Assembly: GCF_024661895.1 (NCBI RefSeq) | Contig: NZ_CP102453.1 | Location: 2,046,001 to 2,110,000 of the forward strand | Reading direction: 5' to 3' | DNA length: 64,000 bases | Origin: Fundicoccus culcitae | GTDB taxonomy: Bacteria; Bacillota; Bacilli; Lactobacillales; Aerococcaceae | Shown: positions 11,772 through 56,295 of the stretch, one piece after another | How positions within the stretch are numbered: the first letter of the stretch is position 1 | Layout of the letters: each line of letters begins with the position of its first letter | Notes under the pieces: generated by a model | What the model was told of the DNA's origin: nothing | The model's input: only the letters and a program-made list of their open reading frames with translations | Database searches by the model: none | Translations under genes and position numbers: made by a program

Positions 11772-11893
11772 AAGTGGAACAAACACGGGTTGAATATTCC
11801 ACTTAATGGATTAAGTGGAACAAACTCGGTTAGAAAGTTCCACTTAATGGGTTAAGTGGAACAAACTGGGTTAGAATATTCCACTTAAGCGCG
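11772..11893. repeat. Three tandem palindromes, 41-bp period (AAGTGGAA family)
   Basis: Units at 11772, 11813 and 11854, exactly 41 bp apart. Arms AAGTGGAA/TTCCACTT (ten bases, TTAAGTGGAA/TTCCACTTAA, in the inner units) enclose exactly 17 bp. Centres differ between units while arms and spacing are fixed. A single copy of the same family is at 35336-35368. Confidence 0.85.
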
Positions 11894-11927
11894 ATTATGA
11901 GCTGTTTTCAAACATATTTATCAATTT

Positions 11928-12380
11928 GCCGGACGTCGATTTTGGATGAAGGCCGGCAAATCAGTTTGGCGGACGTCCCATGAAAAAGAAAGCCGGCAAA
12001 TAGGTGAACCCGCTTGATTTGCACCGACATTTCAAGAAAGCCGGACGTCGATTTTGTATGAAGGCCGGCAAATCAGTTTGGCGGACGTCCTGTGGAAATG
12101 AAAGCCGGCAAATGGGTGAACCCGCTTAATTTGCACCGGCATTTCAAAAAAGCCGGACGTCGATTTTGTATGAAGGCCGGCAAATTCGATTGCCGGACGT
12201 CCCGTGAAAAAGAAAGCCGGCAAATGGGTGAACCCGCTTAATTTGCACCAACATTTCAAAAAAGCCGGACGTCGATTTTGTATGAAGGCCGGCAAATTCG
12301 ATTGCCGGACGTCCCATGAAAAAGAAAGCCGGCAAATAGGTGAACCCGCTTGATTTGCACCGGTATTTCAGAAAAGCCGG
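11928..12380. repeat. Tandem array of 112-bp repeats (array 2, four units)
   Basis: Units start at 11928, 12040, 12152 and 12264, with a fragment at 12376, all 112 bp apart. Each unit has two GCCGG...CCGGC inverted repeats set 40 bp apart (arms TTTGCCGG/CCGGCAAA, 20-bp centre) followed by a shorter GGTG...CACC stem. It is the same repeat class and period as array 1, with diverged sequence (GCCGGACGTCG here, GGCGGACGACA there). Confidence 0.9.
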
Positions 12381-12559
12381 TTTTTTAACTCCTCATTTAT
12401 CATAGGTGCATACGAGAACATGTAAAAAACGATAGCGACAACTTGTGCATGAGAAGCTATGGGATCCTTCATAGAATAATCCAGAGATATTTATTAAAAG
12501 TGATTGTATTTGTTTTTAAAATGTGCTATTATAATTTTTGTTGTTCTGATAAAGACAAT

Positions 12560-39509: not shown

Positions 39510-39536
39510 TTCAACTAAATACCTCTGCAACACTTT

Positions 39537-39564
39537 AAGCCCGGCAGGAAACTGACGGGCTTTT
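39537..39564 (+). terminator. Terminator after pepO (in D1)
   Basis: AAGCCCG/CGGGCTT stem with a GCAGGAAACTGA loop region, then TT. The same element at 44823 has a longer perfect stem. Confidence 0.75.
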
Positions 39565-39718
39565 GGTCGGTAGGTTGGTTGCTTGCGCGACAAAGAGTGT
39601 GCGGATGGTGGGTGGGAAGAAGCTTGCATTGGTAGCGCTCCAATCTTTGTCATCGCTCCGTCAGCAGTGTCCAGATACAGATGTATGTGGGAAGTGAGCG
39701 GACGTTATGTAAAGCTAG

Positions 39719-39841
39719 TCGGTCATCAAACACCTAATTTCATGACCGAATTAAGCTAATCTGTCATCTGCTCGAGTAGCAAAAGACAGAATAGCTCTAA
39801 TCTGTCATCTGCTCAAGGAGCAAAAGACAGAATAACTTGAT
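39719..39841. repeat. Three palindrome units in phase, 41-bp period (D1)
   Basis: Units start at 39719, 39760 and 39801, 41 bp apart. Unit 1 arms TCGGTCAT/ATGACCGA; units 2-3 arms TCTGTC/GACAGA; each is 31 bp with a 10-bp linker. Two different palindrome types occupy one 41-bp register, which is why I regard the geometry, not the sequence, as the constant. Confidence 0.8.
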
Positions 39842-40141
39842 TCTGACCAAAATCTGGGTAAAAGTAAGTGGAAAATGAGAAAACGTTATAGTCACTCAGA
39901 TATTTCCATGTGACAATAACTTAGATGAGCATTGATAGACGGTCTGTCACTTCCCACTCACAATCGGATGAGTCTCCAAACCAAAAGCGCCCCTCACCCA
40001 TAACTTTCAGTCCCCGAAAATCCAGCGCCTCCTTCCCCAATCCCACCCATCCCTTTTTCTTCACATCAACTTCACATACCATTTATTTTGACCTCATATC
40101 CTCCCGCTATAATAGGCTTAAATAAAGGGGGTTCATTAGAA

Positions 40142-40828
40142 ATGACGTTGCAAACAAAAGAACTCGGGTATTACTACCTAGATGGTTCTAAAAACAGATA
40201 CATCTTTCAGGACTTAAACTTAACCTTTGAAAAAGGTGTCTTTTATAGCATTTTAGGTAAATCTGGTTCAGGCAAAACCACCTTATTATCCTTGTTATCA
40301 GCCCTGGATAGTCCTAAAGAAGGTGAAATACTACTTGATGGCATATCATTAAAGGTTATGGGATTAGCATCCTATCGAAGAAACAAAATTGGTATTGTGT
40401 TTCAAAATTTTAATCTAATTCCTTACATGACAGCTGTTGAAAATGTCATGGTTGTCATGAGTGTGACTGATAACCAAAGTAATGTATCGGCCAAAGAATA
40501 CGCATTAAATCTTTTAAAAAGTGTTGAAATAGATCAAACTACCGCTGAACGCTTAGTCAGTAATTTATCAGGTGGTGAACAACAACGGGTCGCAATTGCC
40601 CGTTCACTCGCAACCAATTGCGATATTATTATCGCTGATGAACCAACAGGAAATTTAGATGATGATACAGCCGTTGGTGTGATTGATATCTTTAGAAAAC
40701 TAGTGGATGAAGAAAATAAATGTGTCATCATGGTAACTCATTCACAGGAAATAGCTACTAAAACCGACATTATCATGTATTTAAATAAAGGCAGCATCAA
40801 CATTTTAAAAAAGAAAGAGGTCGTGTAA
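40142..40828 (+). CDS. ABC transporter ATP-binding protein, MacB/LolD-like
   Basis: About 228 residues. Walker A GKSGSGKTT, Q-loop FQNFNLIPYMT, signature LSGGEQQRVAIARSL, Walker B IIADEPTGNLD. Typical of ABC partners of FtsX-like permeases (MacB, LolD, BceA types). Start ATG at 40142 after AAAGGGGG; the longer frame has no ribosome site. First gene of a five-gene cassette with two membrane proteins and a two-component system, which is usual for antimicrobial-peptide detoxification or envelope-stress modules. Confidence 0.9.
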   Translation: MTLQTKELGYYYLDGSKNRYIFQDLNLTFEKGVFYSILGKSGSGKTTLLSLLSALDSPKEGEILLDGISLKVMGLASYRRNKIGIVFQNFNLIPYMTAVENVMVVMSVTDNQSNVSAKEYALNLLKSVEIDQTTAERLVSNLSGGEQQRVAIARSLATNCDIIIADEPTGNLDDDTAVGVIDIFRKLVDEENKCVIMVTHSQEIATKTDIIMYLNKGSINILKKKEVV

Positions 40829-40829
40829 G

Positions 40830-41174
40830 ATGACTGACAGTTCACGTAAAAAAATACTAATGGGTATATCAATCCTTATTATGGTATACAGCTTATGGAC
40901 AGCTTGGGAAAGCTATGTCTATATCCAATCAATTGTCGCAGAGGGATTTATTGTAAGTGAAAATATTTCAATTGTAGTGAATTACTTTGTGGAAGGCGGC
41001 TTGAAATATTTAGTGGTCGGAATCATATTATTCTTGTACAGTCTGCCTAATAAATTTCCCCAAGAAACCGAGGTTGAAAGTACTTCGGGAGTTGAAGAAA
41101 CGGTAGAAATAGTTGAAGAAAAAGAGCCAGTGATTGAAGAGAATCTTCTTGATGAATGGGAGGTTGCCGACTAG
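40830..41174 (+). CDS. Small membrane protein of the ABC cassette
   Basis: 114 residues, two membrane helices (ILMGISILIMVYSLWTAW and GLKYLVVGIILFLYSL) and an acidic Glu-rich C-terminal tail. Its start follows one base after the ATPase stop, and its stop abuts the permease ATG, so it belongs to the operon. I do not recognise the family; a permease-accessory role is inferred from position alone. Confidence 0.65.
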   Translation: MTDSSRKKILMGISILIMVYSLWTAWESYVYIQSIVAEGFIVSENISIVVNYFVEGGLKYLVVGIILFLYSLPNKFPQETEVESTSGVEETVEIVEEKEPVIEENLLDEWEVAD

Positions 41175-42677
41175 ATGAATTTTTTTCAGCGAGCGATGTG
41201 TAGTGTGACAAGGCGCAAATCAAAATCACTCATTTTATTTCTCATTGTTTTTGTGTTAGGAAATATTATCGCTGGTTCCGTTGCCATTTACCAAGCATCG
41301 ATGAATGTTGAAGCATATACCAAGGAACGCTTAGGTAGTATTGCTACCTTGGAAATTGATATGGAATCCATGATGCAGGCAGGGATATTTCAAGATATTG
41401 AACCCATATCCGAAAGCTTAGCTGATGAAATTGGGCAACATGAGAGTGTGGCGTCTTATGATTACTCTTATTCAACGAACTTAACATCGGATTCACTGGA
41501 TACTTATACGATAGAAGCTGATGCTGAAGAAGGTGGGTTCGTAGCCGGACGCGGAATAAATGACGCCTTTATTTTAGAAGGATCGCTTCTTGGGGAAACA
41601 GTAGACTTTCAAGAAGGCAACAAAACGTTAGAAGATGGACGTTTTCCCACCCAAGAAGAATTAGATGCTGGATCCGCTGTTGCGATGATTTCTCAACAAG
41701 TAGCAGACCTTAATGATATAGTAGTTGGTGATATCATTACCTTAACCAATGAAGTTTATGAACCGCAAACATTTGATATGGAAGCCGGTAGAGCAGCTGG
41801 GATGCAAAATACAACCCAAGACCTTCAACTGTTGGATAGTCATGATGTGACACTCGAAGTGATTGGAATTTATGAAAATACAAGTTCATCAACCAGTGAA
41901 AATGGAACGGCTAGTATTGAAGACTATATTGCATCAATGTCATTAAATACTATATTAACAACTAATGGTGTTGTAAAAGCTGAGCTGGATTTTACTAATG
42001 ACGTTTCTTTGGAATTTGACGATACCTATATTGCTAGAACGACCGGTGTCACTCCAACGTATTTATTAAAAAGTGCGGATGAATTAGACGCATTCCAAGC
42101 AGATATTGAGCCACTAGTACCAGAAAATTATAAGCTAGTGCTGTCAACCGATGCTTATGATTCTGTGGCATCACCCATTCTTTCCTTAAAATCCATGTCC
42201 GTCATGGTACTTTGGGTCGCTTGTATAGCAGCTATTTTAATATTGAGTTTATTTATTATTTTATCCTTACGTGATCGTAAACGTGAGTTTGGGATTTATA
42301 TGGCAATCGGAGAAAGAACGTGGAAAATTATCGCACAAGTTTTTGTTGAGATTTGTGTTGTAGCCATTGTTGCGCTCGTTTTATCCGTCTTTACGGGTAA
42401 TATGCTTTCAAAAAATGTTGCAGATACACTGATTCAAAATGAAGTAACCACACAGGAAAATGTTGTACAAGGACCCCAACGAGGGGGGATGTCATTTAAT
42501 AACGCATCACTAACCATTAGTACCGATGAGATTATTGATGCTTACGAAATTGAATTGGATTCTATGTATGTAGTAACGTTTCTAACCATTAGTATGACAA
42601 CCATTGTTGTTGCGACTATCATACCGATGGGTCAAGTGCTGAAACTGAAACCAAAAGAAGTACTGTTAGAAAGATGA
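41175..42677 (+). CDS. FtsX-like ABC transporter permease
   Basis: 500 residues. One N-terminal helix, a large extracytoplasmic domain (about residues 50-330) with acidic, Gln-rich character, and three C-terminal helices with the FtsX-type RDRKREFGIYMAIGERTWKI motif. It works with the ATPase at 40142. MacB-like architecture (four helices, big outer domain) rather than the ten-helix BceB type. The cargo is unknown. Confidence 0.88.
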   Translation: MNFFQRAMCSVTRRKSKSLILFLIVFVLGNIIAGSVAIYQASMNVEAYTKERLGSIATLEIDMESMMQAGIFQDIEPISESLADEIGQHESVASYDYSYSTNLTSDSLDTYTIEADAEEGGFVAGRGINDAFILEGSLLGETVDFQEGNKTLEDGRFPTQEELDAGSAVAMISQQVADLNDIVVGDIITLTNEVYEPQTFDMEAGRAAGMQNTTQDLQLLDSHDVTLEVIGIYENTSSSTSENGTASIEDYIASMSLNTILTTNGVVKAELDFTNDVSLEFDDTYIARTTGVTPTYLLKSADELDAFQADIEPLVPENYKLVLSTDAYDSVASPILSLKSMSVMVLWVACIAAILILSLFIILSLRDRKREFGIYMAIGERTWKIIAQVFVEICVVAIVALVLSVFTGNMLSKNVADTLIQNEVTTQENVVQGPQRGGMSFNNASLTISTDEIIDAYEIELDSMYVVTFLTISMTTIVVATIIPMGQVLKLKPKEVLLER

Positions 42678-42771
42678 TGATTTTTCATCATCTTTTTTTT
42701 AGTCACTGAAAGTAGTAAACTAAGTAAATAAAGTGGTATTTATTAAGATTTTCAAGAAAGGGGTTGATTGG

Positions 42772-43440
42772 GTGGAGTATCATATTTTATGTATTGAGGA
42801 TGATGCGTTGATTAGTCAGTATATTGCGGACTCGCTGGAGAAGGTTGGGTATGTTGTGACAATTGCGCATGATGGGGAGACGGCCATGAATTTATTTGAC
42901 AGCCAGACCTTCCATTTGGTTTTACTGGACATGATGCTGCCGAAAAAATCGGGGCAGGAATGTTTGATTGAGATTCGCAAAAAGAGCGATGTTCCGATTA
43001 TCGTAATCAGTGCTTTAAATGATGAGTTGATACAAATCAGTGCGTTTAATCAAAAAGTGGACGATTATGTGGTGAAACCATTTTCGATAACTATTCTTGA
43101 GCATAAGATTAATGCTGTATTAAGGAGGGTGTATCAAGTTGCACCGAAGATTATTGAAACACCTAACCTAAAACTAATTCCTGAAAACTATGAATTATAT
43201 TATCAAGATTCTCTAGTTGATTTAACAGCCAAAGAGTTTGAAATCGTCCATTTAATGGTGAGTCACCCAGGTCGCGTTTTTTCGCGGGAGGAAATATTGA
43301 CGATTTTATGGGGTTATGATTATTTTGGAGATGTACGCAATATTGATGTGCATATTAAAAACATCCGTAAGAAAATCTATCCTGAACTCATAAAAACAGT
43401 GAAATCCATTGGTTATAAGATAGGAAAAGAAAATCTATGA
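42772..43440 (+). CDS. OmpR-family response regulator
   Basis: About 222 residues. Receiver with acidic pair IEDD, phospho-acceptor Asp in LVLLDMMLPKKSG, and Lys in VVKPFS; C-terminal winged helix (LTAKEFEIVHLMVSHPGRVFSREEIL ... DVHIKNIRKKI). Start GTG at 42772 after AAAGGGG. A core dispersed motif (42732) lies upstream on the minus strand. It probably controls the ABC genes. Confidence 0.9.
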   Translation: MEYHILCIEDDALISQYIADSLEKVGYVVTIAHDGETAMNLFDSQTFHLVLLDMMLPKKSGQECLIEIRKKSDVPIIVISALNDELIQISAFNQKVDDYVVKPFSITILEHKINAVLRRVYQVAPKIIETPNLKLIPENYELYYQDSLVDLTAKEFEIVHLMVSHPGRVFSREEILTILWGYDYFGDVRNIDVHIKNIRKKIYPELIKTVKSIGYKIGKENL

Positions 43441-44801
43441 AACAATCATTATTTTGGCGTATTTGGTTCTTAACAGCTACAGCGATTATTGTTAGTGCAA
43501 TGCTTTTTTTGGTGGTCTTTTCCCTGTTTGCGAATCAGTTCATTTATAATTCTCAGCTTAATGCTTTTACAAATTCGGTGGAAGAGATACGTTTACAAGT
43601 TGAAGATACAGATACACTGGATGAGACGTTTATTAACGAAGTACTCTTTGATTATGAACAAAGAGGCTTTTCATTTATGATTATTAACAATGATATTTAT
43701 TTGAAATATCCAATCCCTGGAATTATTGTAGATGCATCAGAAACAGAATCGCATCTTTTTTATCAGATTAACACCAATCGGGGACCGCTTATCCAATCTT
43801 TGGACAAGAGCACGACCTTGATTGAAAACATTCCAATAAATAACGCTGAATTATTAGTTTATTATCCTATTTCGTTTGGAACAAGTGATATGCGGTCAAT
43901 GTTTGAAACCATTTTACCTTTGTTTGCGGTCATTAGTCTGATTGTCGCGACGATTGTATCACTACTCTATTCCTTGTACTTCAGAAAACGCATCAAAGGT
44001 ATTCAGCTGATGTTGGAAGAAATGGCTACCTTAACTTATGAACCGCCACAAGAAGCGTTTGAAGGCGATGAGATTGAACAACTTAAAGTCAATATCATTG
44101 TGATGTACGAGCGTTTACGCCAAACATTAGAGCAACTGCAAAATGAAATCGACGTCGTGAAGCGTTTTGAAAATGATCGCTTGTTATTTATGCGAGGTTC
44201 AATTCATGAGTTAAAAACACCATTAATGATTATGATGACTCAATCCAAAAATGCCATTGAGGCATCCGAATCGGATAAAGAATTATTGACGATGTTGTAT
44301 TCGAAAATGGAAGCAATGAACAAACTTATCAATGAAGTCTTAGCCTTATCAAAAGTAGAAGATATCAAATCATTAGAACCTATCAATATCACAGAAGTTA
44401 TCACAGAGGTTCTAGCTGAGTATGAGTATATGATATCGGATAAAATGATTAGTTTGACAAAAGATGATACCCCCATTTATGCAAACTTATCATTATCCGC
44501 AGCTAAAAAAATTGTATCTAACTTGCTGAGTAACGCGGTTAAATATGTGCCGAATGGTGGAGAAATTGTGATTGAACACCGTGATCAAACCATCGTTTTT
44601 CGCAATACCGTCCAAAACAATTTGCAGCTAGACATGAATCGCATATTAGAACCATTTGTCAGTTTTGACAATGATGACGACTCAGAATTATCAGGTAGTG
44701 GGCTTGGTCTCTATATCGTCGCAACATTCCTAACACACTACAACCTAACGTACGACTGTTACTTAGAAGACAATTGGTTCATCTTTAACATCCACCTTTA
44801 A
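43437..44801 (+). CDS. Sensor histidine kinase
   Basis: 454 residues. Two membrane helices enclosing an extracytoplasmic domain of about 130 residues, HAMP-like linker, H-box in SIHELKTPLMIM (His ~254), N-box NLLSNAVKYVPNGG, G-boxes GSGLGLYIVAT. Overlaps the regulator by 4 bp (ATGA). Same cassette as the ABC exporter, so it probably senses its cargo or envelope state. The TAA stop lends its AA to an exact 15-mer. Confidence 0.9.
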   Translation: MKQSLFWRIWFLTATAIIVSAMLFLVVFSLFANQFIYNSQLNAFTNSVEEIRLQVEDTDTLDETFINEVLFDYEQRGFSFMIINNDIYLKYPIPGIIVDASETESHLFYQINTNRGPLIQSLDKSTTLIENIPINNAELLVYYPISFGTSDMRSMFETILPLFAVISLIVATIVSLLYSLYFRKRIKGIQLMLEEMATLTYEPPQEAFEGDEIEQLKVNIIVMYERLRQTLEQLQNEIDVVKRFENDRLLFMRGSIHELKTPLMIMMTQSKNAIEASESDKELLTMLYSKMEAMNKLINEVLALSKVEDIKSLEPINITEVITEVLAEYEYMISDKMISLTKDDTPIYANLSLSAAKKIVSNLLSNAVKYVPNGGEIVIEHRDQTIVFRNTVQNNLQLDMNRILEPFVSFDNDDDSELSGSGLGLYIVATFLTHYNLTYDCYLEDNWFIFNIHL

Positions 44802-44814
44802 TAAATACCTCTGC
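44800..44814 (+). repeat. Dispersed 15-mer, exact copy at the histidine kinase stop
   Basis: AATAAATACCTCTGC; the first AA are the last bases of the TAA stop, on the coding strand. Confidence 0.85.
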
Positions 44815-44822
44815 AACACTTT

Positions 44823-44850
44823 AAGCCCGGCAGGAGACTGCCGGGCTTTT
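44823..44850 (+). terminator. Terminator after the two-component system (in D2)
   Basis: Perfect AGCCCGGCAG/CTGCCGGGCT stem followed by TTT. Confidence 0.85.
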
Positions 44851-45131
44851 GGTCGGTAGGTTGGTAGCTTGCGCGACAAAGGGTATGCGGATGGCGGATG
44901 GGAAGAAGCTTGAATGGGTAGCGCAGGTGTTTAGGCGCACTCGGATAAGGCTTTGAAATGGTAGCGCTCCAATCCGTGTCATCGGAGTATGTAACCATCA
45001 GTCTATGATAGCCCACCTATGGAGGAAATCCCCAATAATTATTAGGCAAATAGTTATTCGGGTCATTGCTCAGATAGCAGTGACCAGATACAGATGTATG
45101 CGGGAAGTGAGCGGACGTTATGTAAAGCGAG

Positions 45132-45254
45132 TCGGTCATCAAACACCTAATTTCATGACCGAATAAAGCTAATCTGTCATCTGCTCGAGTAGCAAAAGAC
45201 AGAATAGCTCTAATCTGTCATCTGCTCAAGGAGCAAAAGACAGATTAACTTGAT
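45132..45254. repeat. Three palindrome units in phase, 41-bp period (D2)
   Basis: Units at 45132, 45173 and 45214, matching D1 (TCGGTCAT then two TCTGTC types) with few changes. Confidence 0.8.
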
Positions 45255-45482
45255 TCTGACCAAAATCTGGGTAAAAGTAAGTGGAAAATGAGAAAATGTT
45301 ATTGTCACTCAGATATTTCCATGTGACAATAACTTAGATGAGCATTGATAGACGGTCTGTCACTTCCCACTCACAATCGGATGAGTCTCCAAACCAAAAG
45401 CGCGCCACCACCCACAACTTTCAGCCCTCGAAGACTCAGCGCCCCTACCCACAGCCCCCAACCCCACGATTAAACCCACCAA

Positions 45483-45525
45483 AAAGGCGGATATAAGCCA
45501 GCTTCTGCTTGCCAATATCCGCCTT
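45483..45525 (-). terminator. Terminator of dps
   Basis: Stem AAGGCGGATAT/ATATCCGCCTT; read on the minus strand it ends in TTTTTGG, after the dps gene. Confidence 0.85.
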
Positions 45526-45530
45526 CATTG

Positions 45531-45557
45531 AAACCCTAAACTTAAACCCTAACCCTA
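45531..45557. repeat. Telomere-like CCCTAA-type stretch
   Basis: Three to four imperfect CCCTAA(A/C) units directly after dps. A similar, longer GGRTTA stretch is at 55673. Confidence 0.6.
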
Positions 45558-45566
45558 CTTAATTAT

Positions 45567-46124
45567 CTATTCGTCATCTTCGTCAACATTGTCGTCGCCA
45601 TCAAAAGGATCTTGGCCAAGGAAGGCTTGTAGCATCCAAATGTTTTTATCTAAGCTAGCCTTGTAGTTAATTAAACCGTCTTCTAAAGCGGCGTTGCCTT
45701 CTTCGGCTGCTAGACTAATCGCTCGGATGGTTAACTCGCGCGTGCTTCTTAAGTCTTCAACAATATTAGCCACCATTTCTTCAGCAGATAAATATTTATC
45801 GGCAGCATCTTCTTTTAACATGGAATAATTAACTAACTCAGCTGTCGTTGAAGCGGGTTTAAACCCAGAAGCTATCAATAATTCGGCCAAACTATCGAAA
45901 GCAGCTTCATTGGCATCATATAACGCTTCAAATTTTTCATGCAAAGTATAGAATTGAGGTCCTTTAACATACCAGTGATATTGATGGAGTTTCACGTGTA
46001 GTGTATGAATGTTCCCTAAAATATGGTCGATAATAGCGGCAGCGTTAATTTTGGTGTGATGGATATGTTCTTTGTAGGCTTGTTCTTGGGCTAATAATTC
46101 TTGCGGTGTTTTATTTTGACTCAT
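45567..46124 (-). CDS. dps: Dps-family DNA-protecting ferritin-like protein
   Basis: 185 residues. The ferroxidase signature is visible: His in LHQYHWYVKGPQF, then HEKFEALYDANEAAFD (Asp and Glu ligands). Forms a 12-mer that stores iron and protects DNA from peroxide, relevant beside an H2O2-producing lactate oxidase in the same window. ATG after AAAGGAGC. Acidic tail. Divergent from dnaX. Confidence 0.92.
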   Translation of the reverse strand: MSQNKTPQELLAQEQAYKEHIHHTKINAAAIIDHILGNIHTLHVKLHQYHWYVKGPQFYTLHEKFEALYDANEAAFDSLAELLIASGFKPASTTAELVNYSMLKEDAADKYLSAEEMVANIVEDLRSTRELTIRAISLAAEEGNAALEDGLINYKASLDKNIWMLQAFLGQDPFDGDDNVDEDDE

Positions 46125-46363
46125 TTAAATCGCTCCTTTATTTATTCTACTTAAAGTATACGTCCCCTTTAATCATCCTACCTTGATCTAAATCAAGTTT
46201 TTGCTCACGCCTAGGCGGTGATATTTATTTAAATAAATATTCTCAGAAATAAACTTTTACTTAAATTTGGCCTTAAGTGAAAACAGAAATATTTCTTCAT
46301 AGCATGTGGCTCTATTGTTCGTTATAATATTAAGCAGAGAAACAAGAAAGGAAGTGAATAAGC

Positions 46364-55730: not shown

Positions 55731-56295
55731 AATAGCGACTAGTGCTAATTGAACTTGAAAAGGGGTACTAGTCATTGGAAGTTTGGAACGGCACACCAAT
55801 GGTTTCAAATGTATTATAGGAGTAAATGCGAGGTGACAGGTAGCGCTCACATATTGGGGCGCTTGTTGTGAGCGTGACAGGTAGCGCACACATATTGGAG
55901 CGTTTGTTGTGAGCGTGACGGTGAGCGCACACATATTGAGGCAGTTGTTGTGAGCGTGAACCTTAGCGGTAAATGTGTGACCATTAAATAAACTACAAAT
56001 TAGGCTATTCGGTCATGAAATTAGGTATTTGGTGACCTATTAGCTTTATTTAACGTTCGCTCACTTCCAGCTTACCTCCCTTCACTTCCCACATACTTAT
56101 AGTAAACCATAACACGATTATTAAACGCATTATAGTAAACCACAAAAACTATAACGCGACAAGTGAATGGTATTAAAGCAAAGACGATTTCCCGTACAAA
56201 TCTCACAAGCCTAACCATAGCTTCCATGTCACCCACCACCCCAGCGCCAACCTGCCACCCCACCACCCACCATCCCGAAAGGAGGCTACCTCAAA
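55670..56295. other. Repeat-rich intergenic region before the RpiR gene
   Basis: No gene. Contains the GGRTTA run, three CGCTCAC-family palindromes (55844-55956), a TCGGTCAT-family palindrome (56009-56039), and text near 56050-56100 that matches the D1/D2 repeat in inverted orientation. The apparent minus frame at 56072-56266 is not credible as a gene. Confidence 0.8.
55844..55966. repeat. Three tandem palindromes, 41-bp period (CGCTCAC family)
   Basis: Units at 55844, 55885 and 55926. Arms CGCTCAC/GTGAGCG (one mismatch in units 2-3) around exactly 17 bp, plus a 10-bp linker (TGACAGGTAG type). A further palindrome of the TCGGTCAT type lies at 56009, 83 bp on, nearly in the same register. Confidence 0.85.

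Follow-up and report, generated by a model that had tools for sequence, protein, structure and literature searches.

When a complete operon lies between two long direct repeats, is it a cassette that moves or circularises through them, or do the repeats have a different origin? This question is raised by a stretch of 64,000 nt of the Fundicoccus culcitae genome (NZ_CP102453.1, positions 2,046,001-2,110,000; GCF_024661895.1), referred to here as the window, and whose positions are used as coordinates below. In it, five genes encoding an ABC exporter and a two-component system, all intact and in one direction, are flanked by two direct repeats, D1 and D2 (Table 1). The original prediction described this arrangement correctly, and held that the module could be variable or mobile by way of the repeats without a transposase. 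From the comparisons presented here, we propose that D1 and D2 probably arose when a spacer rich in repeats underwent a single segmental duplication long ago; the two copies now lie on either side of a lineage-specific exporter/two-component operon.

The best local alignment of D1 and D2 covers 514 columns with 94.6% identity and a score of 390, versus scores of at most 13 for random pairs of 1-kb windows; the two copies match, as had been noticed, over most of their length, and both include the terminator-like hairpin, the palindromes and the GTTATTGTCAC hairpin. In a direct-repeat scan this region appeared as segments of 300 nt (96%), 123 nt (93%) and 32 nt (88%). Identity by blocks is 93.0% in the first 114 nt (39516-39629), 92% in 39630-39654, 97.0% in the central 336 nt (39655-39990) and 79.5% in the last 39 nt (39991-40029), and the longest exact runs are of 100, 79 and 51 nt. 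D2 exceeds D1 by 128 nt (43 + 84 + 1), through two gaps of about 43 and 84 nt, close to the 130 bp estimated before; with a divergence of about 5% and two indels, the copies are indeed not a recent identical duplication. The left edge of the homology abuts two unrelated stop codons, those of pepO and of the kinase gene, and its right edge fades near 40029/45443. The hairpin that follows pepO was not listed by the terminator scan, and D1, D2 and the module gave only chance-level matches to known RNA families.

The central part of D is not restricted to this locus. When D1 was used as a query against the host genome (3.22 Mb in one contig; the repeat surveys are based on searches and on sampled stretches), about 95 matches were obtained, nearly all of them within query positions 174-453, that is, 39683-39962 of the window; the outer parts of D1 (query 1-173 and beyond 453) found D2 as their sole match elsewhere. 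The alignment of 14 long copies revealed a conserved element bounded by terminal inverted repeats (TIRs), GTAAGCGGGAAGTGA ... TCACTTCCCGCTTAC, with internal hairpins, one type of which is 41 bp long and occurs in tandem. The 15-bp TIR GTAAGCGGGAAGTGA is present at 232 genome sites with two mismatches or fewer, versus 6 for the reversed control. About 50 sampled stretches yielded 68 paired elements, with lengths of 34-563 bp. Folded as single-stranded DNA, the 280-nt element reaches -42.2 kcal/mol (z = -5.5), and none of 200 shuffled sequences was as stable. With its terminal inverted repeats, high copy number, short length, lack of coding capacity and stable folding, the element resembles miniature inverted-repeat transposable elements (MITEs) and BOX elements. 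On inspection, the flanks of the 68 paired elements showed no obvious target-site duplication. No Y1/RAYT transposase was found in the host genome, where other transposase classes were not searched for, and such an enzyme was therefore rejected as the mobiliser of the palindromes. As side observations, the elements fall into size classes near 37, 98, 114, 191 and 235 bp. A 41-bp period, which is also that of the internal hairpins of D, recurs in three tandem palindrome arrays of the window that are unrelated in sequence (826-907, 11772-11894 and 55833-55968).

The extra stretch of D2 corresponds to a second dispersed repeat; in D1, only its last ~30 nt (39649-39680) are left. Because D1 retains this end, it is read as the deleted copy, and D2 appears to be nearer the ancestral form; for the same reason, a later insertion of ~130 nt into D2 was rejected. 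D is therefore built from several parts: a hairpin resembling a terminator, two dispersed repeats unrelated to each other, and short flanks that are unique. Among the genomes compared, both dispersed families seem to occur in this one only. The homology between D1 and D2 passes the ends of the TIR element by 167 nt on the left and about 67 nt on the right, into sequence without a third copy. Since the same repeat mosaic and the same unique flanks are present in both copies, one segmental duplication is favoured over two insertions.

The history of the site was approached through 76 other genomes of the family, all outside the host genus. Orthologs of pepO (57-62%) were identified in five of them (G017, G019, G020, G078 and G079), belonging to three genera; in all five, dnaX directly follows pepO, with a gap of about 120-450 bp, and is succeeded by more genes of this neighbourhood, tmk among them. 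Given this adjacency, D1, the module, D2 and an inverted dps gene constitute an insertion that is lineage-specific among the genomes compared. No genes other than the five of the module and dps lie in the interval, and there is no integrase, recombinase or transposase, in agreement with the earlier description of direct repeats without a transposase. Fixation of the module and both repeats in all relatives had been named as the result that would speak against variability; instead, the five relatives lack both at the pepO-dnaX site. The prediction is thus supported in part, whereas mobility through D finds no support: D gave no match in any of the 76 genomes and is made mainly of dispersed repeats. 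Since D is absent from all of them, a single D without the module is absent as well; no such site was found among the available genomes, and the pepO-dnaX junctions of the relatives are without D, module and dps alike.

The unit enclosed by the repeats is complete, since the promoter is situated to the right of D1 and the last gene stops at D2. In homologous operons, a box of the form TT(T/C)A(C/T)AT-N4-TTCA(C/T)AT is present ahead of the permease gene in 4/4 cases with two-component genes and in 0/6 cases without them (5/5 versus 0/6 with the window included). The repeat of the window alone is only mildly unlikely, given that 28 of 100 shuffles match at two mismatches or fewer, so the weight of the case rests on the operon comparison. 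This comparison supports binding of the cognate regulator to the predicted box and autoregulation of the whole module. The exporter would most likely export, or protect from, an envelope-active compound, and would be governed by the kinase and regulator of the same operon. Relatives of the permease, 32-40% identical and none above 40%, were detected in 59 of a sample of 397 other genomes of the order, and relatives of the kinase in 6 of the 397; the distribution of module orthologs across the order appears patchy. No close permease ortholog was found among the 76 family genomes, a collection of genome contigs returned only distant matches, nearly all from Clostridia, and no solved structure was found for the permease by sequence. 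The GC content at third codon positions is 0.30-0.38 in the module versus 0.49 in pepO; values just as low are seen in dps, recR and tmk, and composition is therefore no proof of recent transfer.

According to the proposed order of events, the spacer would have grown by accretion, from a hairpin resembling a terminator, one copy of a dispersed repeat and one of the MITE- or BOX-like folded element, and the whole composite would later have been duplicated around the operon. The module and D would have entered or duplicated in one event, most simply through single-crossover (Campbell-type) integration of DNA carrying both, or through a tandem duplication followed by loss; D1 would then have lost about 127 nt. 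The operon would now be self-contained, with its own box and promoter, and its deletion by RecA-dependent recombination of the two repeats, with one D left behind, is conceivable. Exact runs of 100 and 79 nt should be long enough for this. Any such deletion would follow passively from the duplication; a dedicated mobility system is not proposed, because the interval has no recombinase. Several points weigh against this scenario. The duplication route is itself inferred; the comparison genomes lie outside the host genus, and neither the ancestral D, nor the ancestral module, nor their order is visible in them; the envelope-active compound, most likely the substrate, is a guess from the type of genes; and, as unlinked copies of long repeats are common in this genome, D2 might have been copied beside the module independently.

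This last point leads to the possibility that the composite D dispersed to a second site, behind the kinase gene, in an event separate from the arrival of the module, so that the enclosure would be a coincidence. Unlinked repeat pairs of 200-470 bp with 88-99% identity turn up often in the sampled stretches, composites of this sort abound in the genome, and a repeat pair near a gene set consequently needs no cassette function. However, among 142 unlinked pairs of at least 150 bp between sampled stretches, 79 have at least one end on a TIR edge, whereas the homology of D1 and D2 runs past the TIRs and their outer flanks have no third copy. Two copies in the same orientation within 5.3 kb would also be unexpected for one pair, though not across all the pairs of the genome. 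On balance a coincidence seems unlikely.

It is quite improbable that the two repeats act as functional ends for a cassette that varies or circularises, with the module exchanged between strains through them. The direct orientation, the three exact runs, the complete regulated unit between the repeats, the lineage-specific insertion and the patchy relatives of the module would all suit such ends; nevertheless, D is absent from every relative, its high-copy core makes it a poor specific end, the interval carries no recombinase, and the two copies have diverged and differ by two indels. In addition, no match turned up in the phage and plasmid collections, searched with the 280-nt core or the whole D1, and a 28-nt exact core pattern had none in viral contigs.

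A different route is suggested by the left edge of the repeats, since both D copies begin at a site that matches the 15-mer AATAAATAYCNCTGC. This motif occurs at 542 genome sites with at most one mismatch (280/262 by strand), versus 8 in the reversed control, and only in background numbers in each of the 76 relatives; a stricter form, AATAAATACCNCTGC, has 27 sites in the window at two mismatches or fewer versus 0.58 expected. About half of the sites lie inside open reading frames, in both directions and without conserved flanks, and TAAATACC as a purely 3'-end motif was rejected because many copies are internal to them. The 15-mer looks like a DNA uptake sequence or another genome-wide motif, and is regarded as a putative signal. 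It resembles the uptake sequences of Neisseria and Haemophilus, for which no established equivalent is known among Gram-positive bacteria, and a literature search for Gram-positive uptake sequences found none. If AATAAATAYCNCTGC were one, in a naturally transformable Gram-positive host, the module and D could have arrived by transformation with DNA of the same species, D1 and D2 being the footprint of motif-guided uptake and subsequent homologous integration, which we consider very doubtful. Lastly, a composite transposon, in which the two TIR elements moved together with the 5.1 kb between them by means of a transposase acting in trans, is hardly credible: elements of the same family stand in the same orientation at both ends, and MITEs can mobilise intervening DNA, just as homologous MITEs flanking a segment serve as recombination substrates (PMC10969869), but the duplicated ends are not the element ends, as the homology extends past the TIRs on both sides, no target-site duplication is evident around the sampled elements, no transposase with these TIRs was identified, and the cassette neither behaves as a composite transposon in this comparison nor has the recombinase of an integrative element.

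Table 1. Features of the D1-module-D2 locus and related sites, in window positions.
Feature	Position	Strand	Basis or remark
D1, left copy of duplicated spacer	39516..40029		begins 7 nt past pepO stop codon
D2, right copy of duplicated spacer	44802..45443		begins 1 nt past kinase stop codon
Terminator-like GC-rich hairpin with T-rich tail after pepO, AAGCCCGGCAGGAAACTGACGGGCTTTT	39537..39566	+	sequence reading and inverted pair
Counterpart of this hairpin after kinase gene	about 44823-44852		second copy in D2
TIR-bounded element in D1	39683..39962	+	TIR GTAAGCGGGAAGTGA family; ends here GTATGTGGGAAGTGA ... TCACTTCCCACTCAC; internal 41-bp hairpins
Same TIR element in D2	45096..45375	+	97.9% identical to D1 copy (280 nt)
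Second dispersed repeat in D2	44986..45090		about 30 copies in genome, mostly 75-86%
TIR sites in window	35372, 39683, 39947, 45096, 45360, 56061, 56082		TIR pattern scan
Predicted response-regulator box, 11-bp direct repeat CTTCACATCAA CTTCACATACC	40059..40080	+	comparison of homologous operons
TATAAT	40108-40113		sequence; 27 nt downstream of direct repeat
ABC transporter ATPase, MacB/LolD-like, 228 residues	40142..40828	+	Pfam match
Small protein, 114 residues, one or two hydrophobic stretches, acidic tail	40830..41174	+	no family match
FtsX-like permease, MacB-type core domain, 500 residues	41175..42677	+	Pfam match
OmpR-family response regulator	42772..43440	+	best NCBIfam VanR-B, below that family's cut-off
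Sensor histidine kinase, 454 residues, two transmembrane segments around ~125-residue outer domain	43437..44801	+	Pfam match
Interval missing from the pepO-dnaX junction of five relatives	39510..46363		6.85 kb; synteny
dps/ferritin-like gene, inverted, in lineage-specific insertion	45567..46124	-	family match and synteny
15-mer AATAAATAYCNCTGC, example sites	11343, 21580, 22244, 23186, 31170, 31297, 36279, 39514, 44800, 57032		motif scan

With regard to the remaining features, the closest relatives of dps (64-69%; L164-L167) are located elsewhere in other genomes, at L165 with a Crp-type regulator and a P-type ATPase as neighbours, and dps is possibly a separately transferred stress gene. The window also contains two tandem arrays of 112-bp units with GCCGGC-type palindromes (96-843 and 11906-12429), alike at 62-74%. 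Among the sampled stretches, L205:1660-3066 is identical to L208:1595-3001, and L017:1736-3153 to L204:1745-3162; these unlinked stretches of 1.4 kb are probably recent insertion sequences.

The locus illustrates that a dispersed folded repeat family may come to flank an accessory operon and render it latently prone to deletion although no recombinase is present, and also that flanking repeats alone are no evidence of mobility. The regulator box offers a testable promoter for a little-studied type of exporter/two-component operon, and the genome-specific 15-mer AATAAATAYCNCTGC may merit more attention than the cassette itself.

The operon seems to belong to an already known kind of exporter/two-component system. 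Among named systems, its nearest would be the VncRS/Vex-type system of Streptococcus pneumoniae, which likewise has an FtsX-type permease and an ATPase beside an OmpR regulator and a kinase; however, two permease genes flank the ATPase gene there, and the window has a single one. Four loci from other genomes of the order (L181, L183, L185 and L187) share with the window an ATPase of 224-228 residues (55-60%), an OmpR regulator (54-57%), a kinase (33-36%), an FtsX-type permease and the same direct-repeat box before the first gene. Their gene order is permease-ATPase-PASTA protein-regulator-kinase, in contrast with the order ATPase-114-residue protein-permease-regulator-kinase of the window, which has one permease and, in place of the homologs' third gene with its PASTA domain, the gene for a 114-residue membrane protein. 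Because of the different order and the absent PASTA gene, the operon of the window is considered a rearranged, divergent form; the 114-residue protein was rejected as a remnant of the PASTA protein, given that it has no convincing alignment similarity and no PASTA domain. Nothing direct on a PASTA/FtsX/two-component operon was found in the literature.

As for the repeats, the BOX elements of S. pneumoniae are modular dispersed elements with a variable number of boxB units (PMC3049150), and the core of D is modular in the same manner, with a variable count of internal hairpin units that here measure about 41 bp. It shares with BOX elements (PMC3049150) and MITEs (PMC10969869) a high copy number, the non-coding character, strong folding, TIRs, clustering and mutual insertion, and differs from them in its sequence, its restriction to a single genome, its 15-bp TIR, and in that no target-site duplication was seen and no mobilising transposase identified. 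When compared with segments flanked by MITEs (PMC10969869), the duplicated unit exceeds the element, and neither a rearranged nor an empty version is known; what the locus of F. culcitae has in common with such segments is that direct repeats with MITE-like units bound a set of genes.

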